Shown: positions 1,623 to 28,096 of the stretch, one piece after another
Layout of the letters: each line of letters begins with the position of its first letter
Numbering within the stretch: the stretch's first letter is position 1
Origin: a virus
Length of the DNA stretch: 29,377 nt
IMG/VR virus record: IMGVR_UViG_3300049489_000377
Span: 1-29,377 of that record
Direction: 5' to 3' (one strand)
Position numbers and translations under genes: made by a program
Notes under the pieces: model-generated
What the model was told of the DNA's origin: nothing
Databases searched by the model: none
What the model saw: the letters and a program-made list of their open reading frames with translations, nothing else

Positions 1623-1740
1623 GCGTCTAAAGGCGCTCAACAGGACCCACTGGTGCGCCGCAGCCACCGGCAAGCCTTTTCCTCCGTCAGGCGAACCGGA
1701 AACAGCGGCAACTTTTCCCGAGCACGTGGGGTGTTCGGAT

Positions 1741-1745
1741 GGAGG
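1741..1745 (+). promoter_or_regulatory. Strong Shine-Dalgarno GGAGG fixing the start of the regulator gene
   Basis: GGAGG lies 7 nt before the ATG at 1753. It decides against the upstream in-frame GTG at 1726. Neighbouring late genes rely on start/stop overlaps, so a free-standing strong ribosome site fits an independently inserted gene. Confidence 0.6.
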
Positions 1746-1752
1746 CACGACC

Positions 1753-2538
1753 ATGGCAAATTTCGCAGGACTGATTCCGAGAGCTGACTTCGCAGACAAA
1801 GAGCCGCGCATCCGAGACCTGGAGCTTGGGAAGAAGCTCGGTTACGCGTCGCCTGTAGATGTTCGTAAGCTGGTCGCCAGGCTGGCGGAAGCCGGCAAGC
1901 TGCCGGGCGCTTCAGTTGTTGCCACGGTGGCAAAAACCTCAGGAGGCCGCCCTGGGCGCGAATACTGGCTAGACGAGCGCAGCGCACTGCTCGTGGCGTC
2001 CCAGTCCGGCATGCCGTCCGGCATCGATGTCACCATCGAAGTGATCGATGTGTTCGTGCGCTACCGGCGTGGCGAGCTTCCAACTTCTCCGGATCCCATT
2101 CACCCATTGTTCGCTCGGCAGCGATCAGAGTGGGAAGCGCTGTGGTCACCCAAGGTAGTGCGCGCGCTCTGCGCGCTGTACGGGAACAGTAAGCTCTACA
2201 CCATGGGCGGTCAGATGCCCGGCGGATGGTTCGCAGGCATCCAGCGCATGATTTACGAGCACGTGTGGGATTCAGAACACGTTGCCGAGGCCATCAAGCG
2301 ATCGCCACGTGCGCGGCGTGGCAACAACTGGCACCAGCACATGACGCCCGAAGCGCGCGCTGCGTTCTCAGTCGAACTCGACGCAATTGCAGAAATGGCG
2401 ACGCTTTGCCTTGATCACACTGATCCGGTCAGCCGTTTTTGGGAGCGCATGCGAGAGCGCTACCTGAGCATGCCGATGCAGCTCGGGCTACGCGGAATGC
2501 TCATCTCGAGCAACGCGTCTCAAGCCCTTCCGTGCTGA
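1753..2538 (+). CDS. KilA-N/P63C-like phage regulator (putative antirepressor) inside the baseplate operon
   Basis: A 261-aa protein. The N-terminal part (about 8-110) resembles phage antirepressor/KilA-type DNA-binding starts: LGYASPVDVRKLV, GGRPGREYWLDERSALLVASQSG and IEVIDVFVRYRRGEL. The C-terminal part (about 125-235) resembles the P63C domain found in phage regulators, with WFAGIQRMIYEHVW, NNWHQHMTPEAR and DPVSRFWERMRERY. Such proteins usually regulate lysogeny or early transcription; none is a tail component. It sits between gp45- and gp46-like genes, flanked by 130 and 96 nt of noncoding DNA in an otherwise packed operon. That layout suggests a moron. The domain assignment is from pattern memory and needs a profile search. 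Confidence 0.65.
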   Translation: MANFAGLIPRADFADKEPRIRDLELGKKLGYASPVDVRKLVARLAEAGKLPGASVVATVAKTSGGRPGREYWLDERSALLVASQSGMPSGIDVTIEVIDVFVRYRRGELPTSPDPIHPLFARQRSEWEALWSPKVVRALCALYGNSKLYTMGGQMPGGWFAGIQRMIYEHVWDSEHVAEAIKRSPRARRGNNWHQHMTPEARAAFSVELDAIAEMATLCLDHTDPVSRFWERMRERYLSMPMQLGLRGMLISSNASQALPC

Positions 2539-2634: not shown

Positions 2635-3066
2635 ATGATCACAGCTGCAACTACCGGGATCGTGCGCAACGCAGACGGCAGTCTCTACGAAGACGATGGC
2701 CTCGAAACCGTCGTTGCGATCTCCCTGTTCACCGACGCGAAAGCCACGACAGCAGATGGCCTTGAGCCAGGCGACGATCCGCGAGGCTACTGGGCCGACG
2801 CGTACGACGATGAGCAGGGACTCAACATCGGCTCGAAGCTGTGGCTACTCGAAGGCGCCACGATGACAGTCACCGCTTTGCGCGAGGCCGAGACGTACGC
2901 GAAAGCAGCGCTCGAATGGATGATCGCGGACGGCGCAGCGGACCGCATCGAGTGCAAGGCGACGCGCCTGAGCGACGAAGCCGCATCGCTCGACATCGCG
3001 CTCTACAAGCCCGGCACCGGGTCACCTTACCAACTTACCTGGGAGCTGCACTTTGCCCTTCAGTAG
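2635..3066 (+). CDS. Mu gp46-like baseplate protein
   Basis: A 143-aa protein of the GP46 family, a baseplate wedge component of Mu-like phages. Evidence is the acidic start listing a diagonal of inputs (TVVAISLFTDAKA), the GYWADAY and GSKLWLL motifs typical of GP46, and the C-terminal beta strands (YQLTWELHFALQ). It starts at ATG 2635, 20 nt after a hairpin. Its last 14 nt overlap the next gene. Confidence 0.88.
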   Translation: MITAATTGIVRNADGSLYEDDGLETVVAISLFTDAKATTADGLEPGDDPRGYWADAYDDEQGLNIGSKLWLLEGATMTVTALREAETYAKAALEWMIADGAADRIECKATRLSDEAASLDIALYKPGTGSPYQLTWELHFALQ

Positions 3067-4126: not shown

Positions 4127-5124
4127 CCGCTGACGACTTCCTTCATCAGCTGCTAGCGCTTCTGCCTCCGGGTAAGGCATGGTCGCGCGAAGGCGTTTCG
4201 ATCCTTACCAGCGTGATGGATGGCATCGCGCCGGAGTTCGCGCGGGTGCAAGACCGTGCAGACGCGCTGCAACTCGAGCTCGACCCCAACACTGTCACGG
4301 AGATGATCGACGAGTGGGAGTCCGCGAACGGTCTCCCTGACGATTGCCAGGACCCGCTTTCGACCATCGAACAGCGGCGCGCTGCACTCATATCGAGACT
4401 TCGCGAAGCACAGGGACATAACCCCGCTGATTATGTCGCGATGGGCGTAGCGCTAGGGCATGCGTCAACCGGCGTTCTCCGAAGGCCTTACACCCCGTTC
4501 ACCGTGGGCAGCCCTGCGGGCGCACCGTTGTACGGGCCTGATTGGCTGTTCGCGTTCGACGTTCACTACATGGCGAACCTCATTGCGAGCCCGCACGACT
4601 TCACCACGTGGACAAACGTAAACGTTACCGTGTCCGCGAACGCGACCTATGACCCTGCCGGCTCTGCAATTGCTGACTCTCTCGACTTCGGCGCAGTCGC
4701 TCCAGCGTCGAGAACGCTCGCGATCGCAGGCGCTCCGCTTCATGTGCAGTTCAGTGTGTGGCTCGTTTCCTATACGGGCCTGCATCAGGTTCAGCTCGAT
4801 ATCATCGCGGTTGACGGAACGGTAAGCTCGAAGATCGTAACGGTCGATGAGCGCTGGGGCAGGCACGAGCACCGCGCAGAAGATTCGAGCGGAATTGCAA
4901 GCGTAAGGATCTCGCGCGTAGGCACGGGCAGCGGATATCTCGTTTACGCCTGGGGAGCCTGCGCTGGAGAAGTAGATGACGTCTTCGAGTGCAGGCTCGA
5001 CACGGTCAAGCAGGCGCACACGGTGGCGCTCTATCGCGTGGTCGGCGACCGCGCTGGATACATCGCTGGCGACTTCGTTTCGCTCGGTGCGCTCACTGCA
5101 AGCGCAGCCGGAACAGTCGTCTAA
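4123..5124 (+). CDS. Mu gp48/YmfQ-like baseplate protein with inserted beta-sandwich-like domain
   Basis: Residues 1-145 match the YmfQ/DUF2313 (Mu gp48) family: LLPPGKAW start, EFARVQDRADALQLELDPNT, EWE...GLP, and RRAALISRLREAQG. The family's closing motif (ECRLDTVKQAHTVALYR) appears only at about 289-306. A block of about 135 residues lies between, beginning NLIASPHDFTTWTNVNV. It looks like the carbohydrate-binding-type beta sandwiches used in tail fibres. The ordinary family length is about 190 aa; this one is 333. The C-terminus carries SLGALTASAAGTVV, a unit of the repeat in the protein at 8067-9128. GTG start, GTGA overlap. Confidence 0.85.
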   Translation: MTADDFLHQLLALLPPGKAWSREGVSILTSVMDGIAPEFARVQDRADALQLELDPNTVTEMIDEWESANGLPDDCQDPLSTIEQRRAALISRLREAQGHNPADYVAMGVALGHASTGVLRRPYTPFTVGSPAGAPLYGPDWLFAFDVHYMANLIASPHDFTTWTNVNVTVSANATYDPAGSAIADSLDFGAVAPASRTLAIAGAPLHVQFSVWLVSYTGLHQVQLDIIAVDGTVSSKIVTVDERWGRHEHRAEDSSGIASVRISRVGTGSGYLVYAWGACAGEVDDVFECRLDTVKQAHTVALYRVVGDRAGYIAGDFVSLGALTASAAGTVV

Positions 5125-5128
5125 GGAG
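5123..5128 (+). promoter_or_regulatory. Shine-Dalgarno AAGGAG spanning the gp48 stop
   Basis: AAGGAG begins inside the TAA stop of the gp48-like gene and lies 10 nt before the ATG at 5139. The GTAAG word at 5132-5136 fills the spacer. Confidence 0.5.
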
Positions 5129-5138
5129 ATAGTAAGAC

Positions 5139-6290
5139 ATGGACAGAATCACGGGCGCCACGGTCGAACCTGACCTGCACGGCGCCGGTAAGGATGGCTT
5201 CCGCGAAGGCGCCCCTGGTTCCCCGCCTGCCACCAGCGTCACAGAACTATGGCTGAACTCGGTGCAGGAGGAGATTTGTACCGTCATCGAGAACGGCGGA
5301 TCTGTCCTCAACGGAGGGAACAACGATCAGCTGTATGATGGAGTCATCAAAGCTGCTGGCCTGAGGTACATCGGCGGAGCGATCGCAAGCCACGTTTCGC
5401 GTACGTCACCTGTGTCGATGGACTACCGAGGCATTGCCTACGGAGCGAGTGACGCGCTTTTCGTTGCGGTCGGAACTACGGCCCAGGGGCCGTGCACTTC
5501 GCCTGACGGCGTGACGTGGACCAACCGATCAGTGGCTGACTATCGCGCTGTGTGCGAGCACAGCGGAAGGTTCGTGTGTGTCGGCGCCTCTGGATCGATT
5601 GCGACGACGGACAACGGGTCTGCTTATACCGCCCGCACAGCCGACGCGGCTTACGCTTCGACGTTCTACTCGTGCCACCACGGGTCTGGCAGTTCTTACT
5701 ATGTGATCGCAGGGGTTGCCGGCGAAGTGCAGACATCCGCGGACGCCGTGACATGGACGCATCAAACGGGCGGCCCTGGCACAAGCACATTCTTCGGCGG
5801 CGCGTATGGGAGTGGCGTTCACGTTTTGGTGGGTGGCGACTCGCCTAACCTAAACATGATTTACACCGCCTCGAACGCTTCGATCGGGACATGGACGGCG
5901 CGCACCCCAAGCACTGCGAATGGTGTGATTGGCGCCGTTGCATACGGTAACGGAGCGTTCATCACAGTCGGCTATGACGGCAGCGGAGACCCGTTGATCA
6001 TGAGGTCTGTTGACCTCGGCGTCACTTGGGAAGATATCGACATCCCCAACGACATTGCCGTCCCGTTCTTCAGCATTGCATACGACCCTGACAATCAGGT
6101 TTTCGTAGCAGTCGGAGACGACGGTAAGATCATCGTTTCGCGCGACGGGTCGAACGGGTCATGGCGCGACGTATCCCGCGCGTCATTCACGACGAGCATC
6201 AACGCGCTCGCCTTCGGAGACGGCACGTGCGTCATGGTTGGACCTGGATCTGCCATCCGCCAATCGCTCGCCTTCCCATGGATGGAGTAA
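5139..6290 (+). CDS. Tail-associated protein with BNR/propeller-like repeats
   Basis: A 383-aa protein. Residues 1-75 form a conserved tail-fibre-type attachment start (GAPGSPPATSVTELWLNSVQEEI). After that come about six repeats of 45-50 residues with the pattern IAYGxxxFVAVG....TSxDGxTWT, for example at 88-115, 143-170 and 300-330. This is the signature of BNR/sialidase-type beta-propeller blades without an obvious catalytic set. The position after gp48 is where Mu-like phages place tail fibre or receptor-binding genes. A receptor-binding or decoration role is inferred. The stop TAA lies inside a GTAAG word. Confidence 0.72.
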   Translation: MDRITGATVEPDLHGAGKDGFREGAPGSPPATSVTELWLNSVQEEICTVIENGGSVLNGGNNDQLYDGVIKAAGLRYIGGAIASHVSRTSPVSMDYRGIAYGASDALFVAVGTTAQGPCTSPDGVTWTNRSVADYRAVCEHSGRFVCVGASGSIATTDNGSAYTARTADAAYASTFYSCHHGSGSSYYVIAGVAGEVQTSADAVTWTHQTGGPGTSTFFGGAYGSGVHVLVGGDSPNLNMIYTASNASIGTWTARTPSTANGVIGAVAYGNGAFITVGYDGSGDPLIMRSVDLGVTWEDIDIPNDIAVPFFSIAYDPDNQVFVAVGDDGKIIVSRDGSNGSWRDVSRASFTTSINALAFGDGTCVMVGPGSAIRQSLAFPWME

Positions 6291-8066: not shown

Positions 8067-9128
8067 GTGGCAGAAGGTAGCCGCGCGAAGTCTTACTTCG
8101 ACGAGCACGCCAACGCGATCAGTTGGTTCGCCGACGAGATGCCCCTTTCCGATGGGGTATCCGGCTCTGCTGCGATCACGCTCGGCGCTCTTACTGTTGC
8201 TGGCGTTGGTGACGTAGACGTCAAGGGCGCGTTGGCTGTCACCCTCAGCGCGCTCACCAGCACGGCTGTCGGCGATGTCGATGTCGTCGGATCGTCAAGC
8301 ATCACGCTCGGCACGCTCACCAGCACCGCAGCCGGTGATGTGGATGTCGTAGGCCAGGGCGCTGTTACGCTCGGGGCCCTGACGTCTGCGGCAGCCGGCG
8401 GCGTTACTGTCGCAGGCGCTGCTGTCGTCACCCTGGGCGAGCTGACAGCCTCGGGCATCGGCGACGTGGACGTCGTGGGCATTGCGTCCGTGACGCTCGG
8501 CGCTGTGACATTGGCAGCCGAGGGCGTAGGCGGCGACCCGCCCGTCACAGGCGCCGCAGATATCACCCTGGGAGCCCTCACATGCGCCGCTGAGGGCGCG
8601 GTCGATGTGCAGGGCGCGGCAGCCATCGAGCTGGGCGCCTTGGCCTGCTCAGGCGCCGGCACGGTGGCAATCGTCGGCGAGCTGGCGACGACGCTCGGGG
8701 AGCTTACCGCCTCGGGCGCTGGCGTGGTTCCGATCGTGGGCACTGCGGCCACCACCCTGGATGCGCTCACATCGAGCTCTACCGGAGTGGTCCCGGTCGC
8801 AGGCGCGGCCGATATCACCCTCGGGGCGCTCACGTCGGCGGGCGCTCCGCTGGACGTGCAGGCGGAGGAGTACGACGGCGAAGTCTACACCGTCGTGCTG
8901 CGCGACATGCCGCGCCAACGCGTGGTCATCGCCGATCCTGCCGTGTGCTCGGTGGTACTGGCCGACATGCGCCGGCAGCGTGTGGTCATCGCTGACCACG
9001 ATCCGATCGAAGTCGTGCTCGCCGACATGCGAATGCAAACAGTAAGGCTGCCTTACTCCATCAGGCGCACGAACGGCGCAGCGGCTGTGACGCTGGGAGC
9101 GCTCACGATCTCTGCAATTGCAGAATGA
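8067..9128 (+). CDS. Repeat-built tail protein (21-residue TLGALT repeats)
   Basis: A 353-aa protein starting at GTG 8067 with GAGGGG 8 nt upstream. After a 34-residue start there are eleven units of about 21 residues, with consensus A-x-I-T-L-G-A-L-T-S-x-A-x-G-D-V-D-V-V-G. The sixth unit carries a few extra residues (GVGGDPPVTG). The segment 275-340 changes to three units of VVLADMRRQRVVIAD. The protein closes with one more VTLGALTISA unit. The regular short beta repeats suggest an elongated fibre or decoration. A partner unit occurs at the end of the gp48-like protein. No known function can be assigned. Confidence 0.68.
   Translation: MAEGSRAKSYFDEHANAISWFADEMPLSDGVSGSAAITLGALTVAGVGDVDVKGALAVTLSALTSTAVGDVDVVGSSSITLGTLTSTAAGDVDVVGQGAVTLGALTSAAAGGVTVAGAAVVTLGELTASGIGDVDVVGIASVTLGAVTLAAEGVGGDPPVTGAADITLGALTCAAEGAVDVQGAAAIELGALACSGAGTVAIVGELATTLGELTASGAGVVPIVGTAATTLDALTSSSTGVVPVAGAADITLGALTSAGAPLDVQAEEYDGEVYTVVLRDMPRQRVVIADPAVCSVVLADMRRQRVVIADHDPIEVVLADMRMQTVRLPYSIRRTNGAAAVTLGALTISAIAE
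8169..8866 (+). repeat. Eleven in-frame coding repeats of about 63 nt
   Basis: The protein repeat TLGALT...GDVDVVG recurs every 21 residues. The nucleotide copies have diverged through synonymous and Ala/Ser/Thr changes, so the array is old rather than freshly amplified. Only one GTAAG-type word (8190) lies in the first two-thirds. Confidence 0.75.
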
Positions 9129-9152: not shown

Positions 9153-11543
9153 ATGCTCAGCATGTTTCGTCGGAAAAACGACCCCCAAGGTGCACCAATG
9201 CTCAACTACCGAGACATTCTGATCAACGGCGTCGCGCTAGACCGGCGCACAAAGCTCAATTTCGTGGGGGTGTCTGGCGTTGACAACAGCGGCGAGGCTC
9301 GAACCGATGTTACGTTCGATGCCATCGGCACGTCCGTTCTGACTAGCGACCTTCCGCCCGGCGTAGATGGTCAGATCTTGGTGGCATCGGGCCGCGACGC
9401 GATTGGCGACGGTGGCGGCGGCCTGCTTGTGTTCGATGAGGCGTCCAGCGCGACGCCAGACAACGCAACCGTGTGGCAGGTGGATGCGCTGCCGGGTCGG
9501 TGGGAGCGGGTGTATGACGGGACCCACTACAATGTAAGGTGGTTCGGCGCGCATCCTGACGCGACTGCCTCCGCAAACGCGACCGCGATCCAGGCAGCGA
9601 TTGATGCTGCGGTGGCTGCTGACGTCCGTGTGGTCCTGATCCCGTCTGGGATCTATCAAATATCGCGCACCATATACCTGGGCGCATCGGCGTCGTTCTC
9701 TTGTCTAGAGCTGCGCGGTGACGGATACGCCTACGGCGGTGACTACGGTGGCACAGCACTGGTTGCCACATTCTCCAATGCCCCGGCGGTCAACGTGCAG
9801 GCCGCGCGCGGCTCGGTTGTCCGCGACATGGCGCTAGTTGGGCCCAACGTCGATCACGTATCGAGCAACAGCCTGGGTAATGCAAACCCACTGCTGGACG
9901 ACACGAATATCGCGAACTGGTGGGATCCGACGCTCAGCGCGAACGGCGCCACCCGTTACGCGCCAAGCTGCGGAATTGCGATCGATGGATGGTCTGGGTC
10001 GGCGCCTGCAACGGCGTACCCGACAACTCACATTTCGTACGGGAAAAGCTTCTCGACAGATGTCATGATCGATAACTGCCAGATAATCGGGTTTAACACC
10101 GCGATCGTAAACCAGCCATGCGATGCGGACGGCAACGCCGACTTCACCGTAGTCCGCAGATGCAGCATATCCTATTGCGTGTATGCGATCAGCGTCGGTA
10201 ACTCGCAGAGTCGTCAGTTCGGCATACAGGATGTGAAGGTTGGCCAGTGTTACACCGTGCTGACAAACATTACGCATGGAGCCAGGTTCGGGAAATTCAA
10301 CGGAACAGTCGACAACCTGAGCGTTGGGTTTTGTATCCAGTTGTTTGACTTCGGGACCAGCGCGTACTTCGGCCCGATCAAGTTTTCATGCTGCTATGCA
10401 GAGAGCGTGTGGCGGCTGGGAAACTACGCGGCGAACAGCGCGTCGGAGCAAGGGGTTACGTTCGATAACTGCCAGTTCGGTTTTCATCTGCAGAACACTA
10501 CGCGCGGCATTCCTGCCACTATTCTGAGCGGGTCGTCACAGCAGACACTGCTGCGATTCTCAGGGTGCACGTTCGGGAACTACCCGTCAGTTATCCCTAT
10601 CGATCAGCAAGGGGTAGTGCTAGACAACTGCTTGTGCGCTAGCGTCAACAGGCTTGAGAATGGAGTCACAAAAACATATGAGGCGCTATTTCACAACGCC
10701 ACATGTGACGGCGTGATCATCGGGATCGGAAATGGCACTGAGGACCATCGGATAAAGTTCGATCAACTAAACATAGACACGCTGGCCGATGCGGGCAGTG
10801 TTATTGCGCGGCGCGGGTTCAGCAAATCTGACCGCAAAAGGTGCATACCGATTCACACGCACGTGGTGTCTGCGATAGACGACACGCTCGACGATGTCCA
10901 CGTGCGTAGACAATACACTGCGTGGGACAAGTCCGGCTTCTCTTCGTGCACGCTCGTTCACGGATCCTCGAGCAGCTCAGCTAACACGGGAGTGTTGACC
11001 ATCGTGCTATCCGCTGCCACGGCAGCCGAGGCTGAGCATTTCGGCTATGCCGCTGGAGACATCATAGTTGACGGCGCGACGAAAAGCGTTTTCGCCATTC
11101 GCTCGTTCAACGATGGGACGAATACGATCGTTGCGGAGCTACAGAACAACTATAAGGTGTCCGGCGGGAACTACACCACAGTGACCGCGTTCAGCGAGAC
11201 GGTGGGCGTTATGTACGCCTACAACGCTCGTCTGTTTTGCCCGCAATATACGCTCATCGCAGACGTCACATCTGGCAGTGCGGTGCTTGCTGCGACGGGC
11301 AGAGATGACGGGTACTCCGGCTTCATTTCGTCAGGCGGCGTAACCGACGCTGTTAATGTGGACGACCGTGCGTATGTTGCACCCACTGTAGACGCCTGGA
11401 TAACGTACGGTGCAAACAAGGTGACCGCGATAGACGCTGACGGGACGTCCATAACCTTAGACGGCACGGCGCCACGCAATGCCAGCCGCAAACGGCTCGG
11501 CATATGGATCCGAAAACCTCCGGCTAATGAGGCGTCAAGATGA
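9153..11543 (+). CDS. Tailspike with N-terminal pectate-lyase-like beta-helix start
   Basis: A 796-aa protein. Residues 1-120 are an attachment region ending in an RWERVYDG...YNVRWFGAH linker. From about 130 the text NATAIQAAIDAA...VVLIPSGIYQISRTIYLG is the classic start of Pectate_lyase_3-type beta-helices. The 150-560 region fits a right-handed helix. Residues 590-790 form C-terminal beta domains. Such spikes bind and often cleave surface polysaccharide; which one cannot be told. Base use is less GC-biased than in neighbours (ATA, AAC, TAT codons). The GTAAG word common elsewhere is missing from 9539 to 11566, so the body was probably acquired separately. Start: ATG 9153 behind AGGAG. Confidence 0.85.
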   Translation: MLSMFRRKNDPQGAPMLNYRDILINGVALDRRTKLNFVGVSGVDNSGEARTDVTFDAIGTSVLTSDLPPGVDGQILVASGRDAIGDGGGGLLVFDEASSATPDNATVWQVDALPGRWERVYDGTHYNVRWFGAHPDATASANATAIQAAIDAAVAADVRVVLIPSGIYQISRTIYLGASASFSCLELRGDGYAYGGDYGGTALVATFSNAPAVNVQAARGSVVRDMALVGPNVDHVSSNSLGNANPLLDDTNIANWWDPTLSANGATRYAPSCGIAIDGWSGSAPATAYPTTHISYGKSFSTDVMIDNCQIIGFNTAIVNQPCDADGNADFTVVRRCSISYCVYAISVGNSQSRQFGIQDVKVGQCYTVLTNITHGARFGKFNGTVDNLSVGFCIQLFDFGTSAYFGPIKFSCCYAESVWRLGNYAANSASEQGVTFDNCQFGFHLQNTTRGIPATILSGSSQQTLLRFSGCTFGNYPSVIPIDQQGVVLDNCLCASVNRLENGVTKTYEALFHNATCDGVIIGIGNGTEDHRIKFDQLNIDTLADAGSVIARRGFSKSDRKRCIPIHTHVVSAIDDTLDDVHVRRQYTAWDKSGFSSCTLVHGSSSSSANTGVLTIVLSAATAAEAEHFGYAAGDIIVDGATKSVFAIRSFNDGTNTIVAELQNNYKVSGGNYTTVTAFSETVGVMYAYNARLFCPQYTLIADVTSGSAVLAATGRDDGYSGFISSGGVTDAVNVDDRAYVAPTVDAWITYGANKVTAIDADGTSITLDGTAPRNASRKRLGIWIRKPPANEASR

Positions 11544-11641
11544 GACGATTTGGGAGGCGCAGTCGACTTACTTCGGCTGATGATCGCGCCACGGCACAGG
11601 CGGACAAGCAAACGTCGTCGGTCGCATCTAAGTAAGACAGT

Positions 11642-11647
11642 AAGGAG
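11642..11647 (+). promoter_or_regulatory. Shine-Dalgarno AAGGAG choosing the GTG start at 11655
   Basis: AAGGAG lies 7 nt before GTG 11655. It marks this as the start of the holin-like gene rather than the upstream in-frame codon at 11550. Two GTAAG words (11632, 11640) abut it. Confidence 0.55.
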
Positions 11648-11654
11648 CGCACAA

Positions 11655-12407
11655 GTGGACCCGTCAACGCTGATTCCCCTTCTATCGCTCTTGCCCCCCG
11701 CATGGCAGCAAGCGGCCGTCACCGCCTTACTGTTCATGGGCTCCATGACAGTGGTCGTGGCTGCGCTGAAAGCCGTTGTACCATTCCTGCGATCGCTCGC
11801 CGAGCGCACCGCGAGCACGCGCGATGACAAGGCGGTGAGCATCGCGGCTGATGTGTTGAACGACCTCGCGAAGCTTGCCGAGTGGTGCCAGCGGTTCACC
11901 GAGGTGCTGGCAGGACACCGAGCTCCACCTGTGCGCGCGATGCTGAGTGCGGTCAAGCGCAAGGGCCCGCCTGTTGCCGTGATCTTACTCGTAGTGATCG
12001 CTGCGCAAGGTCCGCTGGGCTGCGTGGGCTCGTCGGTGCGAACGCATGCGACGATCGCAGACACCGCATACGAACCAATCCTTGCGACAAAGCTTGCGAT
12101 CGAAGATCACGCCTATCGTGCCGTCGCGCTGATCAAAGAAGACTCGGCCACGACCGAAGAGGCTGAGGGGAAGATCTCGAAGCTGCGCGAGCGGTACCGG
12201 CCAGTCGAAGGCGCCACGGCTCTCGTCATCGAGGCTTACAACGCCTACGTCGATGCGATCCAATCGGCGCATGAAGACGGTAAGGACGTGCGCACCGAAG
12301 CGGGGCTCGCTCTTTTGAATCGCTGGAAAAGCTTACTATCTGCGGCCGAGATGATCGGTCTTGATTTGCCTGAACCGCCCGAAGCGCTGAAAGGTTTGGT
12401 GCCATGA
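11655..12407 (+). CDS. Holin-like membrane protein with internal lipoprotein-type start
   Basis: A 250-aa protein from GTG 11655. Residues 5-42 contain a hydrophobic hairpin or long membrane segment (WQQAAVTALLFMGSMTVVVA), followed by a charged region, as in phage holins. At residue 96 there is an in-frame ATG (11940) followed by KRKGPPVAVILLVVIAAQGPLGC. This is a textbook lipoprotein signal (basic n-region, hydrophobic core, Cys at 123, though with Pro at -3). The rest (130-250) is a helical, charged domain that could act as an outer-membrane spanin or spacer. So the gene may make two products, or be a fusion of holin and lipoprotein. Position before the endolysin supports a lysis role. Confidence 0.6.
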   Translation: MDPSTLIPLLSLLPPAWQQAAVTALLFMGSMTVVVAALKAVVPFLRSLAERTASTRDDKAVSIAADVLNDLAKLAEWCQRFTEVLAGHRAPPVRAMLSAVKRKGPPVAVILLVVIAAQGPLGCVGSSVRTHATIADTAYEPILATKLAIEDHAYRAVALIKEDSATTEEAEGKISKLRERYRPVEGATALVIEAYNAYVDAIQSAHEDGKDVRTEAGLALLNRWKSLLSAAEMIGLDLPEPPEALKGLVP

Positions 12408-12637
12408 GCGATCCGAGCAAACACGACGAGCTAACAGCGGAGATCCTCGAAGGCATGGGCAACGCGGCAGCCGGCATCGCCGGAAGCTTCGGGCATGCAA
12501 TGGCAGGCACCGCGGCCAAGGCCATCATGCACGCAGCGGCCGAAGCGATTCGCAGGCGCGGCGTAACGACCGATCAGCTCGTGGTGTCCCTGCGCCACGT
12601 CTCGCCCCTCGATATGCCTTGGGGTGCTGACAAATGA
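12404..12637 (+). CDS. Small Ala/Gly-rich protein of the lysis region
   Basis: A 77-aa protein coupled to the previous gene by ATGA. It has an amphipathic Ala-rich helix (AAAGIAGSFGHAMAGTAAKAIM) and a hydrophilic C-terminus. No family was recognised. Confidence 0.6.
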   Translation: MSDPSKHDELTAEILEGMGNAAAGIAGSFGHAMAGTAAKAIMHAAAEAIRRRGVTTDQLVVSLRHVSPLDMPWGADK

Positions 12638-12816
12638 CCACCGTCGTCTACTCGCCTTTCTTTGGCGTGATCGCTGTTGAGGATGATGACGATACAGTGG
12701 CCTTCGTTGGCTCGGAGCGAATGGTAAGAGTCGACTATCAGGTCGGAGACTTCGAGGACCTGGGCGACGAAGATAAGCACGTGGTGCGCTTGGATCACAT
12801 CGAGGTAATGCGCTGA
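12634..12816 (+). CDS. Small acidic protein of the lysis region
   Basis: A 60-aa protein (beta-rich, with DDDDT and a DFEDLGDEDKH tail), coupled by ATGA upstream and TGATG downstream. It has a GTAAG word at 12724. Function unknown. Confidence 0.6.
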   Translation: MTTVVYSPFFGVIAVEDDDDTVAFVGSERMVRVDYQVGDFEDLGDEDKHVVRLDHIEVMR

Positions 12817-13520
12817 TGAGCTACATTCTGGTAAGCGGCAAAGAGGTCGCTTGCGATGCTCCAGTGATCCTGTGGGAGGAGAGCGGCCTGCGCTTCGATG
12901 GACTCGGCAAGCGCTCGACCACTACGTGCGTCGTGCTCCACCACACGGGCGGCGTCGGCATGGCTCCGCAGGTTTTCCGCACGCTCAAGACGCGCACAGA
13001 CAAGCGCGGCAAGCTCTTGAACCTGAGTGTTCACTTTTGCGTCGAGCCGAACGGCAACGTCTATCAGTTCGTTGACGCTGACCGTCGATGCGCCCACGCG
13101 GGAAGCGTGGACGACACGAACAACGATGGTTTGCAGCTGTCAGGCAACTCCTGCTCGATCGGAATTGAAGTGATTAATCCCGCGTCCAGCGTGGCGAGCG
13201 CTCGCGGTATTCGGCGGGCTCTTGTGCGTGAGGAGATCCATGGTGTCGAACAGGTGGCAACCGCGTTCACGGCTGAGCAAACAGCAAGCACGATCGCGCT
13301 TTGCCGGTCGCTATGTGCCGCCTACGGGCTCCCCTGCGATGTGGCGATGGATGATCAAGACGTACTCTCGACGGTGATGCCGGAGCAGGAGTTCAAGACA
13401 TTTCGCGGGGTGCTTGGCCACCTTCACCTGACCTCGCGCAAGCGCGACCCTGGCCTTGCAATCTTACGATCCATTGCTGCGCTCAGTCGCAGGCCTTCCA
13501 CGCCACCGGACGTGATTTGA
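12816..13520 (+). CDS. Endolysin: N-acetylmuramoyl-L-alanine amidase (Amidase_2)
   Basis: A 234-aa protein of the zinc-dependent Amidase_2 (T7 lysozyme/AmpD) family, cleaving the lactyl-amide bond between muramic acid and the stem peptide. Visible motifs are HHTGG at 42-46 (first zinc His), SVHFCVEPNGNVYQ at 71-84, HAG at 94-96, SIGIEVINP at 114-122, and GHLHLTSRKRDPG at 201-213, which holds the second His, the catalytic Lys and the Asp/zinc region. There is no signal peptide, so release through the upstream holin is expected. It starts at ATG 12816 with TGATG overlap. Only the exact second His (202 or 204) is uncertain. Confidence 0.92.
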   Translation: MSYILVSGKEVACDAPVILWEESGLRFDGLGKRSTTTCVVLHHTGGVGMAPQVFRTLKTRTDKRGKLLNLSVHFCVEPNGNVYQFVDADRRCAHAGSVDDTNNDGLQLSGNSCSIGIEVINPASSVASARGIRRALVREEIHGVEQVATAFTAEQTASTIALCRSLCAAYGLPCDVAMDDQDVLSTVMPEQEFKTFRGVLGHLHLTSRKRDPGLAILRSIAALSRRPSTPPDVI

Positions 13521-13535
13521 AAATGAAGGTGCCCC

Positions 13536-14069
13536 GTGCCGGAATGGCTGACTCACTTGCTCGGGCAGATGTCGCCGGAGGGCGTTGTGAGCGGAACCAT
13601 TGCGGCAATTGCTGCCATCATCCGAACGGTTGCCGCAGTTCTGGAAGCTCGCACCACGCGTAACTTCAAGCGTAAGGCCAGCTCGATACCGCCAAGCGAG
13701 TGCACAATGCGAGACCTTACTGAGATCGAGCGCGAGAACGAGCGCATGCGCGGCGAGCTGCATCGTCTGCAATGGCGCGTTGATGAGCTTGAGAAGCAGC
13801 TCACCGAGGTCGGGCGCGATCACAGTCACACGGCAAGAGCGCTCAATCGCGAGCGCGAAGACTGCGAAATGCTCAGGCTCCGCGTGGGCGAGCTGAAAGA
13901 AGCGTTGCGCGCCGTCAACTCGGGCGCGTCGACGCACCTGCCCACGCACCCGCGCACGCGTGGGTCAGCGCCTTCGTGGGAGCTGATCGATGTGGTCGAG
14001 GAGGACGCGAGGCCTACGCCGCGGATGGGGATGAAACGAGTCAAGCGCGATGAAACGCCTACGCACTGA
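13536..14069 (+). CDS. Membrane-anchored coiled-coil protein (inner-membrane spanin candidate)
   Basis: A 177-aa protein starting at GTG 13536 (AAGG upstream). Residues 17-36 (VVSGTIAAIAAIIRTVAAVL) form one transmembrane helix. Residues 62-135 form a highly charged coiled coil (ERENERMRGELHRLQWRVDELEKQL). This is the layout of Rz-type inner-membrane spanins. The C-terminal 45 residues are Pro/Arg-rich. It follows the endolysin, as spanin genes usually do. The lipoprotein gene at 14405 could be its partner. The function is inferred from topology and place only. Confidence 0.5.
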   Translation: MPEWLTHLLGQMSPEGVVSGTIAAIAAIIRTVAAVLEARTTRNFKRKASSIPPSECTMRDLTEIERENERMRGELHRLQWRVDELEKQLTEVGRDHSHTARALNREREDCEMLRLRVGELKEALRAVNSGASTHLPTHPRTRGSAPSWELIDVVEEDARPTPRMGMKRVKRDETPTH

Positions 14070-14081
14070 CTGGATGCACCG

Positions 14082-14411
14082 ATGAAACTTACCGACCTCA
14101 ACCCTCAGTTTTTGAATGCGGGCGGCGAGCACTGCTACACGCGCGACCCCGAAACGGGCGCGCTCCTCCCTGCGCCGGATCGTAAGGGCGTGGGCGTTGT
14201 GTTCGATTGCCCGTGTGGCAACCACGAGGAAGAGCACAGGTGCTTTGTGCCGTTCAAGATCGCGATCGATGGCATGCCGAGCGGTGAGCCCAAGGGCTGG
14301 CAGCGCACAGGCGACACCTTCGAGACGCTTACGATCGAGCCGTCGATCCTGCGCATCGGCGGGTGCGGCTGGCACGGGTGGATCCGCAACGGGGACGTGA
14401 TCACATGCTGA
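14082..14411 (+). CDS. DUF6527 family protein
   Basis: A 109-aa protein with the DUF6527 pattern: a CPCG turn (DCPCGNHEEEHRCF), a GWQRTGDTFETLTIEPSI core in which a Trp and a PSI motif are typical, and a closing CGWHGWIRNG. The family occurs in phage genomes near lysis genes. Its biochemical role is unknown to me. The stop overlaps the start of the lipoprotein gene (ATGCTGA). Confidence 0.75.
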   Translation: MKLTDLNPQFLNAGGEHCYTRDPETGALLPAPDRKGVGVVFDCPCGNHEEEHRCFVPFKIAIDGMPSGEPKGWQRTGDTFETLTIEPSILRIGGCGWHGWIRNGDVITC

Positions 14412-14842
14412 GACTCGCCGCCCTGCTCGCCCTTGCCCTCTGCGCGTGCGTCCACGGGCTTCCGCCTGGCTCTACTGATGGTAGAGCCGTCTCGGCTGTC
14501 GAGGGCGCCTGGCGGGCCGCTGGGCTGCCTTCACCGGGGGATTGCCTGGAGCTTGTCGAGGTGCGCCGCCATCGCTCCCTGAGCGCCTACGTGGATGCCT
14601 GCGACGGGGGCAGGCCGGGCCTGTACGGCGATGCCGCGCGAGACTCGGCCGGATGCCTGACCAGTGCATTCCGTGGCGTGCTCGGAAAGAGCGTGTGGAT
14701 CGTGAACGTTGCCCCGGGCTACCACGCGGACCCGACGATCGTGGGCCACGAGCTACGGCACGCCCTTACTTACTGTCACCTTGATCGGCCGAGGCATGAC
14801 CCGTTCGATGCGGGACACTCAGATCTGAGGGTTTGGCGGTAG
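14405..14842 (+). CDS. Lipoprotein with HExxH zinc-protease-like motif
   Basis: A 145-aa protein. The start ATG 14405 gives a lipoprotein signal (LRLAALLALALCAC, lipobox LCA with Cys15). The mature part ends with VGHELRHALTYC (HELRH 115-119) and a distal DAGHSDLRVW, giving a likely HExxH...H zinc set. Similar small lipoproteins with HExxH and a HSDxRVW end are known next to phage lysis genes, with no proven function. It might cut a periplasmic substrate, or it might be a spanin-type outer-membrane factor. Its last 77 nt overlap the opposing gene. Cys47, Cys66, Cys84 and Cys124 could form disulfides. Confidence 0.65.
   Translation: MLRLAALLALALCACVHGLPPGSTDGRAVSAVEGAWRAAGLPSPGDCLELVEVRRHRSLSAYVDACDGGRPGLYGDAARDSAGCLTSAFRGVLGKSVWIVNVAPGYHADPTIVGHELRHALTYCHLDRPRHDPFDAGHSDLRVWR
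14468..14488. other. Perfect 8-bp hairpin inside the lipoprotein gene
   Basis: GGCTCTAC (14468-14475) and GTAGAGCC (14481-14488) flank a 5-nt loop. It falls just after the signal-peptide codons. There is no U-run, so a pause or structural role is more plausible than termination, but none is shown. Confidence 0.3.
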
Positions 14843-16663: not shown

Positions 16664-16909
16664 TTACCTTTCGTTGCTCGTTCGTCCCGCCACCTGAGCC
16701 AGCGGGCGAGACCTGTGCTTTTCGCAGGTACGCTTGCACAGTCGGCACGTGTCACCGAACGGCTGATCTTCGTCGCCTGGTGCGCACACGCAGGCCTCGT
16801 TCAGGATTGCGATCGCCGCATGCCTGTACGCCGCAGACTTCGATCGCCACCCGCGACCCTTACCATTCACGCGGTAGACGGTGGCCTTCGAGGCGATGAT
16901 GGTCGTCAT
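16664..16909 (-). CDS. Small Cys-rich protein
   Basis: An 81-aa protein, ATG 16909 behind GAAAGGTAAGAC. CVCAPGDEDQPFGDTC and CRLCKRTCEKH give six Cys suited to zinc binding. The N-terminus has GKGRGWRSKSAAYRHA, likely basic. The stop lies inside the next GAAAGGTAAG. Confidence 0.68.
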   Translation of the reverse strand: MTTIIASKATVYRVNGKGRGWRSKSAAYRHAAIAILNEACVCAPGDEDQPFGDTCRLCKRTCEKHRSRPLAQVAGRTSNER

Positions 16910-17531
16910 GTCTTACCTTTCTGCGCTGACCTTGCCATCGCAATCAACACGTCCCGAAACTCATGCGGCGTTGCACTCGCTGCGCGCTTGCCGACTCGCG
17001 GCCTGTCCTCACCGCTGCGTACGGAATTGCCGCACCACGACACGAGCGCCTTGACATCGGTGTCGATCACGTGGCCCCATCGCAACTCGGGAAGGTCCAC
17101 GCCGCACGCATAGAGCCACGTGGCCTTCTTTGCGGGGTGTCCGTAGCGATTCTGCTCGACGTAGCACGTCCACCCGTCGTGACCGTCGATCCAATCAGCA
17201 CGCGACCATCCCCCGCCTGTCGTCGGTGCTGCAAGACGATGCGCTGCCCATGCGTCTGAGTATGCTGGATGCTCCAACACCCCCCCCATTTGCGCACTGA
17301 CGCGAGCGCAGAGGCAAAGCACCCGCCGTCTTCACCGCGCTTGTGGCCCCAGCGCGCCTCCACGAGGCCAGCGAGCCGGCACCACCGAGAGCACGGCGGA
17401 TGCGCGACAACAGGGTAAGGCCCAGGGTACAGGCGTGCGTCGCGCTTTTCGTCCCACGCATCCACGTCGGGCAAGCCGGCGTAGCAGCCTTTGGCGTCAA
17501 CGAAGAGAGCGGCGATCTTACGCTCACCCAT
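16906..17531 (-). CDS. Methylase-like phage protein, split by a frameshift at a G8 run
   Basis: The product begins MGERKIAALFVDAKGCYAGL and continues AHPPCSRW (PPC motif reminiscent of cytosine methylases), GGCFASALASVRKWGG. It then shifts frame at eight Gs (minus strand; 17280-17287) to VLEHPAYSDAW, GWTCYVEQNRYGH and KKATWLYACGVDLPEL. Homologous phage proteins I know carry all these in one frame, here of 208 aa. Nine Gs, or a -1 ribosomal slip on GGGGGGG, would restore it. No methyltransferase activity is proven for the family. Start ATG 17531, with an alternative at 17543. The last codon overlaps the next gene by ATGA. Confidence 0.68.
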
Positions 17532-17751
17532 GCCGCGCTCCATTCGCATCACCGCGCTTGATTCGCTCTGCGGCATCGTCGCCCATCTCGTCACGCCCGT
17601 CAGTCAGCAGCCACGCCACCACGTCCGCGATGGCGTCGGCGTAGCCTTGCGCGTAGCCGAGGGGGTTGCCTCGGGTCGTGTTCGGGTAGAGTTCGTTCAT
17701 CAGCGCCACGAACTCCGCGCGCGGGTTGCGTGGGGTGACCGGCTCACCCAT
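17524..17751 (-). CDS. Hypothetical small protein
   Basis: A 75-aa acidic helical protein with ATG 17751. It contains GYADAIADVVAWLLTDG and a final DDAAERIKRGD. It shares the junction CATGGGTGAGC with the next gene at both ends. Function unknown. Confidence 0.65.
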   Translation of the reverse strand: MGEPVTPRNPRAEFVALMNELYPNTTRGNPLGYAQGYADAIADVVAWLLTDGRDEMGDDAAERIKRGDANGARHG

Positions 17752-18451
17752 GGGGCACCTCGAAACGATCGAGCGGCGTCGAGTAAGCGAGCATCAGCGG
17801 GTGGCGCGGGTGCCCGTTCTTCGTGCGCCCGAGGCACATCGGTTCGTCCGCGCCTTCGGCCTCGCGAGCAATCTCGAGGATCCTTACCGTCCTACTCGCG
17901 ACGAGCTTGGCGACCCGTGCGCCTCCCGTTGCGCCCCACGCAAACACCGGGCGGTCGTATTCGATCGCAGCCCTTACCCAGTCGTTGTTTTCAGGGCCGA
18001 TCGGGTCTGGTGCGTCCAGCAGTCCGGCAGGGTCCGTCGATCGCAGCGCGAACAGGTTGACGACCCAGATGCCAGACATGCCCCAGCGGCGTGCGAAGCC
18101 CATGCACTTGCGGATCGTGGGGTCGTCTGCGTGAGCATCCGCCGTGCTCGGGTTGAGCATGACGAACGTGGCGAGAGGTCCGTCAGCCCACCTACGCCAC
18201 AGCGTGTACCGATACCGGCCACAAGCAGAGACTTCGGCGCCGGATTCTCCGATCATGTCACCAGGCCAGGCGGGGAGTCCCGGTAATTCCCCGATGCGAC
18301 CTGTCCGCGCGTGTCTTACGCTGTCCGTCTCAGGCGGGGCAATCGTGCCAGATTCGTCCGGTAGTCCCCCGGTGTCCCTGACTGTCTTACCATCGATGTG
18401 ATGAAGGTCATCATCTCGAAGGAGCTTCGACTCTGACGTTTTCGCGCTCAT
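17744..18451 (-). CDS. DUF1643 family protein
   Basis: A 235-aa protein. The ATG at 18451 overlaps the integrase stop (ATGA); a longer in-frame extension runs through the integrase gene and is not real. After a 65-aa variable start the DUF1643 core is clear: CGRYRYTLWRRWADGP, FVMLNPSTADAHADDPTI, RKCMGFARRWGMSGIWVVNLFALRSTDP, PIGPENNDWV, and FAWGATGG. Members are often phage-borne, with unknown biochemistry; some resemble nucleoside-modifying enzymes in fold. A tight link to an integrase is notable here. Confidence 0.85.
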   Translation of the reverse strand: MSAKTSESKLLRDDDLHHIDGKTVRDTGGLPDESGTIAPPETDSVRHARTGRIGELPGLPAWPGDMIGESGAEVSACGRYRYTLWRRWADGPLATFVMLNPSTADAHADDPTIRKCMGFARRWGMSGIWVVNLFALRSTDPAGLLDAPDPIGPENNDWVRAAIEYDRPVFAWGATGGARVAKLVASRTVRILEIAREAEGADEPMCLGRTKNGHPRHPLMLAYSTPLDRFEVPHG

Positions 18452-19632
18452 TCTTGGGCCTTTCGCTTGGCTGCCTTCTTCTTGGTCCCGGTTTGAGACC
18501 CGGTTTGAGCAAGGAACCGTGACCCGACCCGGGCCCCGAGCTCCACGACTTCGCTCGGCTGCGTGCCCAGGTAGCCGGCCTGCACGGCCTCTGTTTTGTG
18601 CCCGCCGACTGCGCGCAGAAGGCGAGCGCTCGCGAACGTCTGAGCGACCGTCAGCATGGTGTGCCGGGCCGTGTGGGAAGCCACGGGCAGGTCGAGCCCG
18701 ATCGCGAGCAATCCGCGTTTGTACACGTGCCACGCCGTGCTGATCGACCAGTGCTCCGAATGCCGCTTGCGTGTCGTGGGCGGGCGGGGGAACACCAGCA
18801 CATCGAAGCCCGGCCACTGCTCGCGCTCCATCGTCGCCCGGTGCGCGGTGATCAGCGCGAGCCCATCGGGTCCAAGCGCAGCTGTGCGCGCGTAACGCCC
18901 CTTCGTCGGCCCGACGCGTCCGCGCACCTGAGCTCGGCGAATCGTGACGATGCCGGTGGTCATGTCGATGTCGCCCCACTCGAGCGAGCTCACTTCGCCG
19001 AACCGGCAGCCCAGAACGAACTGGGCAGCAGCGAGCGGGTAGAACGCCTCTGCGTGGCGCTGGAACCACGACAGCAGCGCGACAGCCTCTGACTCAGTGA
19101 GCGCCCGTCTGGGGGCGTCCTCGAGCGCCTGTGAGCGGGTAGGCCGCGTGCTGCGCCGCTCGGTCTCGGCTGCCGGGTTGCCCTCGCAGTAGCCACGGCG
19201 CACCGCGTAGCGGAACACGTGTTTGAGCACGTCCCTGATGCTGTTCACGGTGCCGGGCGCGAGCGGGAGCGCGTCGAGGTAGGCCTGGAGCTCGCGCCGG
19301 GTGAAGGCGTCCACGAATTGCTGACCGTAGCGCTTGGTCAGCTTGCGGACGTGCGAACCGTAGGAGATGTGCGAACCGTAAGACTCGACAGTTGCGAGCC
19401 ACTCCGAGGCCACGGCGCCGAACCTGCGGCGGTCCTTCGCTCGCGGGTCGGTCTCGTTGCGTGCCGCCTCGAGCTGGCGAGCGCGCTCGACCACTGCAAG
19501 TGCCTTGCTCGCGGCCTCGAAAGTGACCACGCGATCACGGTGCTTGCCGTCGCGCTGGTCGATCCAGTAGAGCCGCGCCTTCCACAGCTTCTTACCGTTG
19601 CGCCTGCCGCACTGCTTGAGTCCCCGGCTCAT
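18448..19632 (-). CDS. Tyrosine recombinase (phage integrase)
   Basis: A 394-aa integrase counted from ATG 19632, which overlaps the previous stop (ATGA); an in-frame ATG at 19641 is possible. The N-terminal arm/SAM-like domain spans about 68-160. Catalytic residues by pattern are Arg210 (LGCRFGEV), Lys244 (PTKGRYAR), His320-x-x-Arg323 (HTARH), His345 (GGHKT) and Tyr354 (AGYLG). The C-terminus is a KKKAAKRK tail. It integrates and excises the phage at att sites. GTAAG words are missing from 18391 to 19377. A 12-bp direct repeat (19351, 19369) encodes YGSH twice. Confidence 0.93.
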   Translation of the reverse strand: MSRGLKQCGRRNGKKLWKARLYWIDQRDGKHRDRVVTFEAASKALAVVERARQLEAARNETDPRAKDRRRFGAVASEWLATVESYGSHISYGSHVRKLTKRYGQQFVDAFTRRELQAYLDALPLAPGTVNSIRDVLKHVFRYAVRRGYCEGNPAAETERRSTRPTRSQALEDAPRRALTESEAVALLSWFQRHAEAFYPLAAAQFVLGCRFGEVSSLEWGDIDMTTGIVTIRRAQVRGRVGPTKGRYARTAALGPDGLALITAHRATMEREQWPGFDVLVFPRPPTTRKRHSEHWSISTAWHVYKRGLLAIGLDLPVASHTARHTMLTVAQTFASARLLRAVGGHKTEAVQAGYLGTQPSEVVELGARVGSRFLAQTGSQTGTKKKAAKRKAQE

Positions 19633-20021
19633 TCGTCGCATGCTTCCCTGGTTGGCGTTCGGCTGAAGTCCCTCAGCGCTTCGAGCATGCGTCCCCATTC
19701 CCGATATCCGCGGTGCAGGCGAGCTAGCCACATGCCCATCGTTTCGTCGGGGTGCGCTCCGTACATTCGCCGGTGAGTCATGTTGCCGTCGAGTTGATCG
19801 GCCAGGTCTTTCCGTGCCGCGTCTCGCTCAGAGCGCAAGCGCTCAACATCTCGCGCAAGGTCTTCTGCGCACACAGTAGCGCCATTGAAAGAGTAAGCAT
19901 GAACGGTTCCGCCAAGTGACCTCGCGGCAAGCCGCGCCTTTTCCTCGGTCGCGTAAGCAGCGACCGAGGCGCCGCTTTTGAGGCGGACGGGCTTAAAATC
20001 TCGCTCGACAACGAAGATCAT
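19629..20021 (-). CDS. Hypothetical protein upstream of the integrase
   Basis: A 130-aa protein starting at ATG 20021 (ATGA overlap). The N-terminus FVVERDFKPVRLKSGASVAA then a helix of acidic and basic residues (DVERLRSERDAARKDLAD) suggest a small domain plus coiled coil. The end has WLARLHRGYREWGRMLEALRDF. Function unknown. Confidence 0.65.
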   Translation of the reverse strand: MIFVVERDFKPVRLKSGASVAAYATEEKARLAARSLGGTVHAYSFNGATVCAEDLARDVERLRSERDAARKDLADQLDGNMTHRRMYGAHPDETMGMWLARLHRGYREWGRMLEALRDFSRTPTREACDE

Positions 20022-27351: not shown

Positions 27352-28096
27352 CATCCACTCCCTTGTCAGCGCGCACAAAACACCCGTTGTCATCCAGACG
27401 GTAAGGCCGGTTTGGCTCAATCCCATCCTCACCGACGTGGGCCACTTCGATCCGCCAGCGCTTGCTGTTCCAGCGCCTGATCGCAATGATCCCACCTTCG
27501 CCAGCCGTCGCGGTGCCACGTGCGCCAGCCGTCGCGGTGCCAGCGTAGCCAGCCGTCGCGGTGCCAGCGTCGCCAGCCGTCGCGGTGCCACGTGCGCCAG
27601 CCGTCGCGGTGCCACGTGCGCCAGCCGTCGCGGTGCCAGCGTCGCCAGCCGTCGCGGTGCCACGTGCGCCAGCCGTCGCGGTGGCGTACACGACGCCTAC
27701 GCCGCAGAGATCGACGATCTGCTGCACAGCCGCATCACGCGTGCCGGAGTACGTCACCCACGCGCGCGGCACCTTGACCTTACTGTTCAAGTCAATGGCA
27801 TCATCGGCGAACACTGCGCACACGAGCCACACCGCATTCGGGTCTGAGTGATTGATCGACGCGCTCGCATCGCCAGCTCCCATCAGCCACCCGTGCAGGC
27901 CGTGGCCGCACTCCTGCGTAGGCTGCCAGTCAGGCGCCTCCACCGGGCCGGACTCAGGCCAAACGAACCCGCCATGGGCGCGGCGCTGACTGTCGCAGCA
28001 CCTAAGCATGTACGTGATCTTACCCTCGCGGCTACGCGCCAAAAACTCGCGCATCTCGTCGACTGGTGCAGCCTTGCTTTTCTTCGCGCGTGCCAT
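27344..28096 (-). CDS. TATAG-repeat protein with conserved phage N-domain
   Basis: A 250-aa protein, ATG 28096 (TGATG). Residues 10-130 are a conserved phage domain with CGHGLHGWLMG and NAVWLVCAVFADDAIDLNSK followed by KVPRAWVTYSG. Then come eight octapeptides TATAGxxG (TATAGARG, TATAGDAG, TATAGYAG, TATAGEGG). The end is a short beta tail (IIAIRRWNSKRWRIEVAHVG). Similar GTATAG repeats form beta-solenoids in bacterial and phage proteins, reminiscent of ice-nucleation repeats. The repeat number probably changes by slippage. The cellular job is unknown. Confidence 0.75.
   Translation of the reverse strand: MARAKKSKAAPVDEMREFLARSREGKITYMLRCCDSQRRAHGGFVWPESGPVEAPDWQPTQECGHGLHGWLMGAGDASASINHSDPNAVWLVCAVFADDAIDLNSKVKVPRAWVTYSGTRDAAVQQIVDLCGVGVVYATATAGARGTATAGDAGTATAGARGTATAGARGTATAGDAGTATAGYAGTATAGARGTATAGEGGIIAIRRWNSKRWRIEVAHVGEDGIEPNRPYRLDDNGCFVRADKGVDDV
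27491..27682 (-). repeat. Eight tandem 24-bp coding repeats
   Basis: Unit gccagccgtcgcggt (+ strand) plus 9 variable bases, encoding TATAG plus a three-residue spacer. Eight units of exactly 24 nt with near-identical cores suggest recent unequal exchange. It is coding, not a CRISPR array. Confidence 0.88.

Follow-up and report, generated by a model that had tools for sequence, protein, structure and literature searches.

A viral lysis-region reading frame that combines a holin-like segment with a lipoprotein-type module, by fusion or through a one-base indel

In two-component spanins such as lambda Rz/Rz1, the o-spanin is a lipoprotein encoded in the lysis cassette. The unimolecular spanin gp11 of phage T1 carries a lipid attachment site and a transmembrane (TM) segment in one chain; its lipobox is N-terminal, its TM segment is C-terminal and its periplasmic domain is beta-rich (PMC6139136). 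The published lipobox consensus is [LVI][ASTVI][GAS]C, and deviations such as AWAC have been shown to be functional (PMC6139136). Lipoproteins of the Ltp type are encoded by prophages and act in superinfection exclusion (phage TP-J34, PMC3952083). Here, we compare with these systems an open reading frame (ORF) at 11655-12407 in which a holin-like segment precedes a putative lipoprotein signal.

The window, that is, the whole stretch of DNA analysed (29,377 bases), comprises an entire virus record of IMG/VR. It contains Mu-like baseplate genes (gp44/gpP-like, Gp45, gp47-like and Gp48), a tailspike-like gene (9153-11543) and a lysis region (11655-14842), and its minus strand encodes an integrase (18448-19731), an exonuclease, RecT and a YqaJ recombinase. 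ORF 11655-12407 shares with the two-component spanins a putative lipoprotein in the lysis cassette, but it is helical throughout, has no clear proline-rich region and is joined to an upstream membrane protein. We recognised no overlapping or embedded Rz partner for it. Like T1 gp11, it has a lipid attachment site and a TM segment in one chain; however, the order is reversed and the periplasmic domain is predicted to be helical. No TM segment follows Cys123, and the unimolecular spanin arrangement of an N-terminal lipobox with a C-terminal TM segment is absent. It resembles the Ltp-type proteins as a prophage-encoded lipoprotein, but its gene follows the tail genes, in the late lysis region, and we found no sequence link to them.

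The ORF is open from GTG 11655 to the stop codon at 12405-12407 (250 codons). ATG 11940 is its codon 96, in frame, and Cys123 occupies 12021-12023; all coordinates given for the ORF and this codon in the original prediction, which was made from the sequence alone, were borne out. GTG 11655 is preceded by the Shine-Dalgarno sequence TAAGGAG (11641-11647, plus strand; best anti-SD duplex -8.4 kcal/mol). As predicted, ATG 11940 has no clear ribosome site: its duplex (-1.9) is the poorest among the gene starts compared, all neighbours being better. GTG 11931 has a weak site (-4.0). There are two hydrophobic segments, beginning near residues 20 and 107, with almost no charges before the first and many basic residues between them. 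From these charges we predict a topology with the N terminus out, a cytoplasmic basic loop and the C terminus out. Codon statistics prefer frame 0 across most of the ORF and for the ORF as a whole. For 11655-11939 taken as a whole, the codon score is +7.9 in frame 0 versus -27.7 and -19.7 in the other two frames. We considered whether the upstream part is a chance extension of a lipoprotein gene; its own ribosome site and the coding signal of 11655-11939 in frame led us to reject this.

The N-terminal module (11655-11939, plus strand) consists of a short N terminus, one TM segment (approximately residues 20-43) and an amphipathic helix at 58-85, whose hydrophobic moment of 0.455 was reached in 0.2% of shuffles. 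In its small size, its single TM segment and its place upstream of an amidase endolysin that has no export signal it resembles the one-TM holins, but it matches no holin model in Pfam, PHROG or NCBIfam. Thus, the 'holin-type membrane region' of the original prediction stands as one TM segment in a coding upstream part, and its assignment to the holins does not extend to a family match; we call it holin-like on the basis of position and topology. Several weak genome matches to this part (L197-L200) proved on inspection to be chance matches.

The rest of the cassette bears on this assignment. A 77-aa ORF (12404-12637, plus strand) overlaps the end of ORF 11655-12407 through ATGA. It is followed by the endolysin, an N-acetylmuramoyl-L-alanine amidase (12816-13520, plus strand; PF01510, E 5e-22; phrog_1794), which has neither an N-terminal membrane segment nor an export signal. 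Of the possible holins for this cytoplasmic amidase, the N-terminal module, with a TM segment near residue 20 and the amidase as a neighbour, is the best placed. The other membrane candidate of the cassette is a 177-aa protein with one N-terminal TM segment and a coiled coil (13536-14069, plus strand). When this protein was considered as an i-spanin, which has an N-in TM segment followed by a periplasmic coiled coil, to pair with an o-spanin in ORF 11655-12407, the basic residues after its TM segment suggested that the coil lies on the cytoplasmic side. A DUF6527 protein (14082-14411, plus strand; PF20137, E 1.5e-10) and a second lipoprotein-like ORF (14405-14842, plus strand; MLRLAALLALALCAC) complete the region. 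The latter contains an HELRH motif, as in zinc peptidases, and matches no family.

ATG 11940 opens an internal segment that resembles a signal peptide (MLSAVKRKGPPVAVILLVVIAAQGPLG; 11940-12020, plus strand): a basic n-region and an uncharged hydrophobic run are followed by Cys123. The residues before the cysteine are Pro (-3), Leu (-2) and Gly (-1), so that PLGC departs from the consensus at two positions, -3 and -2. The 'perfect-looking lipoprotein start' of the original prediction therefore holds for its basic stretch, hydrophobic run and LGC, but not for the lipobox as a whole, and PLGC is best described as a possible but irregular lipidation site. Such internal signals are rare: in 1.03 million codons from ORFs of at least 200 aa we counted 11 internal ATGs, among them ATG 11940, that are followed by a basic n-region, an uncharged hydrophobic run and [GAS]C. 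Some of the other matches resemble ORFs with over-extended starts, and a stricter lipobox filter passes every match except ATG 11940. Among the papers searched for internal lipoboxes, or for bacterial polyproteins cut by signal peptidase, we found no direct precedent.

Searches with the whole protein or either half returned no relative in annotated phages, plasmids, viral contigs or GTDB genome contigs. Neither half matches a curated family (Pfam, PHROG or NCBIfam), and PDB sequences gave weak, unrelated matches only. One genome match was significant (E 1.6e-5), at a locus with a free-standing lipoprotein (MRWLVIVLALVALGC). This relative is carried by IMG/VR contig 3300026519_000002 (L192, 4001-4423), and the same virus, 99% identical, is found in a bacterial genome (L168). 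BLASTP of the window protein against the L192 lipoprotein gives E 2e-8. When the signal regions were removed and only the mature parts were aligned, the score was 85 against a shuffle mean of 29 (sd 5), approximately 11 sd above. Thus, the match does not reflect mere hydrophobic sequence. Weak genome matches to a profile of the C-terminal part (L195, L201 and L203) were inspected and set aside as chance matches.

Homology between the two proteins begins at the hydrophobic segment, includes LGC and extends to the C-terminal end, and in both viruses the gene lies among holin and small lysis-region genes. They differ in that the relative has an ALGC lipobox in a separate gene, whereas ORF 11655-12407 has PLGC inside a longer frame. 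The L192 gene has its own 14-residue signal right at its start, with the same LGC and the cysteine kept. The signal is therefore N-terminal in L192 and internal in ORF 11655-12407, and how this difference is read depends on whether the indel proposed below is real. The L192 lipoprotein directly follows a 64-aa holin protein, matched by phrog_9752 with E 7e-12, and a 47-aa ORF; the genes have GTGA overlaps. By direct comparison, this holin has no similarity to the N-terminal part of ORF 11655-12407. The gene after the L192 lipoprotein likewise starts by overlapping it, and a direct comparison found no sequence similarity between its product and the 77-aa ORF. Elsewhere in the lysis region of the relative (4699-5436), a 245-aa protein seems, as judged by eye, to consist of a receiver domain like that of response regulators, joined to a TM segment at its C terminus.

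The original prediction had looked to relatives in which the two halves might be separate genes. In the sole relative found, the C-terminal half is a stand-alone gene with the cysteine conserved, which runs against the contrary expectation of one conserved two-membrane protein without Cys123. The part from Cys123 onwards (12021-12407, plus strand) is a real lipoprotein-type module, and the view that the ORF consists of two modules of separate-gene ancestry is supported. AlphaFold2 predicts a three-helix bundle at residues 125-233, mostly with pLDDT 84-95; the loops and the rest are lower and the mean pLDDT is 65. Fold comparison of this model returned generic helical bundles only and names no family (the best PDB match was YicC, Z 10.7; the viral library gave nothing with E < 0.5). 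A second fused example was absent from 80 viral and 80 genome loci, from the whole collections and from more than 1,100 genome look-ups. The lysis cassettes of 160 relatives, chosen by the baseplate protein gp47, contain nine ORFs with lipoprotein signals, none of them related to ORF 11655-12407.

At the junction of the two modules (11910-11946, plus strand), frame +1 outscores frame 0 over codons 11910-11937; its stop codon, TGA 11944-11946, overlaps ATG 11940 (ATGCTGA). Counted from 11910, the gain of the +1 frame over these codons is 6.83 log units; the stretch was located after the fact, and the signal comes mainly from two rare codons. Across 16 other genes of the window (4688 codon positions), no rise of this size occurs in that frame; in the other frame, it is found in 2 of 32 gene-frame combinations. 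Over the longer stretch 11858-11939, frame 0 still wins (+3.2 versus -3.0). A stop codon overlapping the next ATG is a common phage pattern, and out-of-frame stops overlap an internal ATG by chance in 15 of 68 cases. The pattern fits an upstream gene that overlaps a lipoprotein start and has a single-base indel near its end, and we regard it as suggestive only.

In at least one conserved gene of the contig the reading frame is broken by an indel, from assembly or mutation. An indel near 17.28 kb divides the gene of phrog_12600 (16909-17594, minus strand) between two frames, with E 2e-27 for profile positions 2-79 in the first and E 1e-29 for positions 71-196 in the second. Caulobacter phage Jess A encodes both pieces in a single frame of one protein, and intact copies are found in others too.

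Based on these data, we propose a model in which two overlapping lysis-cassette genes are read as one through a one-base indel in the contig, and we give this model about an even chance. The upstream gene would encode a small holin-like membrane protein from GTG 11655, most likely running to TGA 11944. The downstream gene would encode a periplasm-facing lipoprotein, its precursor starting near ATG 11940 or at the nearby GTG 11931. The indel would be located within a few codons of the junction, on its upstream side, and could stem from an error of assembly or sequencing or from a mutation that only this copy carries. In this model, the holin-like protein would let the amidase get to the cell wall, and the lipoprotein, once exported and carrying a lipid on its first cysteine, would act in the envelope at lysis. 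We infer both the indel itself and the functions of the two modules; it is the position of the lipoprotein that points to a role in lysis, for instance as an outer-membrane partner. We favour two genes because the C-terminal module is a gene of its own in L192/L168, after a holin and with a GTGA overlap with the preceding gene, because the +1 frame is preferred just before a TGA that overlaps ATG 11940, and because the split of phrog_12600 shows that such indels do occur in this contig. Against this, ATG 11940 has no ribosome site, frame 0 wins over the longer stretch, and both the rise and the overlap have equals by chance in the counts given above.

A genuine fusion, processed or unprocessed, is a tentative alternative when both forms are taken jointly. 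In the processed form, the chain from GTG 11655 would insert N-out, pass through a cytoplasmic loop and re-enter the membrane by the segment flanked by KRK; Cys123 would be acted on by Lgt and signal peptidase II of the host, releasing a membrane-anchored lipoprotein and leaving a two-TM holin-like piece. The continuous frame with its single strong start, the fit of the charges to this topology and the cysteine shared with the stand-alone lipoprotein are in its favour. However, Pro -3 and Leu -2, the lack of a second fused case in the loci and genomes searched and the frame anomaly at the join make this precursor unlikely. It is similarly doubtful that the virus translates a holin-like membrane domain and a lipoprotein as a single polyprotein that host signal peptidase II cuts at an internal lipobox, which would yield inner-membrane and envelope lysis factors one to one. 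If Cys123 escaped processing owing to the unusual lipobox, the product would be a two-TM hairpin with a periplasmic three-helix bundle. PLGC, the continuous frame and the confidently predicted bundle agree with this, but the L192 counterpart keeps LGC behind an ordinary N-terminal signal peptide and the frame anomaly again counts against it; we consider this form improbable. Least probable is one ORF with two starts, yielding the full-length protein from 11655 and a free lipoprotein from 11940 or 11931. A good n-region and hydrophobic run do lie directly behind ATG 11940, but ATG 11940 has no ribosome site, GTG 11931 has a weak one and, with no in-frame stop, a terminating ribosome could not provide coupling. 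We assign the small remaining probability to none of these readings. Thus, the original suggestion that one gene could make both a holin and a lipoprotein is supported as to its two modules; its two products are not established, given the missing second start signal, the unusual lipobox, the possible frame switch at the junction and the indel elsewhere in the contig.

A real fusion would provide a natural example of a lipobox located internally, after a TM segment, and of two lysis factors made one to one. If an indel joined the genes, which seems at least as likely, the locus would reveal a new, nearly orphan lipoprotein family beside phage holins. It would also be a warning that viral contigs from a single assembly can yield apparent fusion genes.

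Three other features of the window were observed. At 27492-27683, eight 24-base units form a tandem array with higher periods of 48 and 72 bases; on the minus strand the array opens an ORF of VAPRRLAH/T repeats, which is possibly not a gene. Between the tail genes and the tailspike-like gene, a 353-aa protein (8067-9128, plus strand) is built from a repeat of the type ITLGALT-x-A-GDVDVVG, present about a dozen times, and has no family match. Last, as judged by eye, a 270-aa ORF unlike any tail protein (1726-2538, plus strand) separates the Mu gp45-like gene from a gp46-like ORF of 143 aa (2635-3066) and appears to be an insertion in a baseplate gene order that is otherwise conserved.
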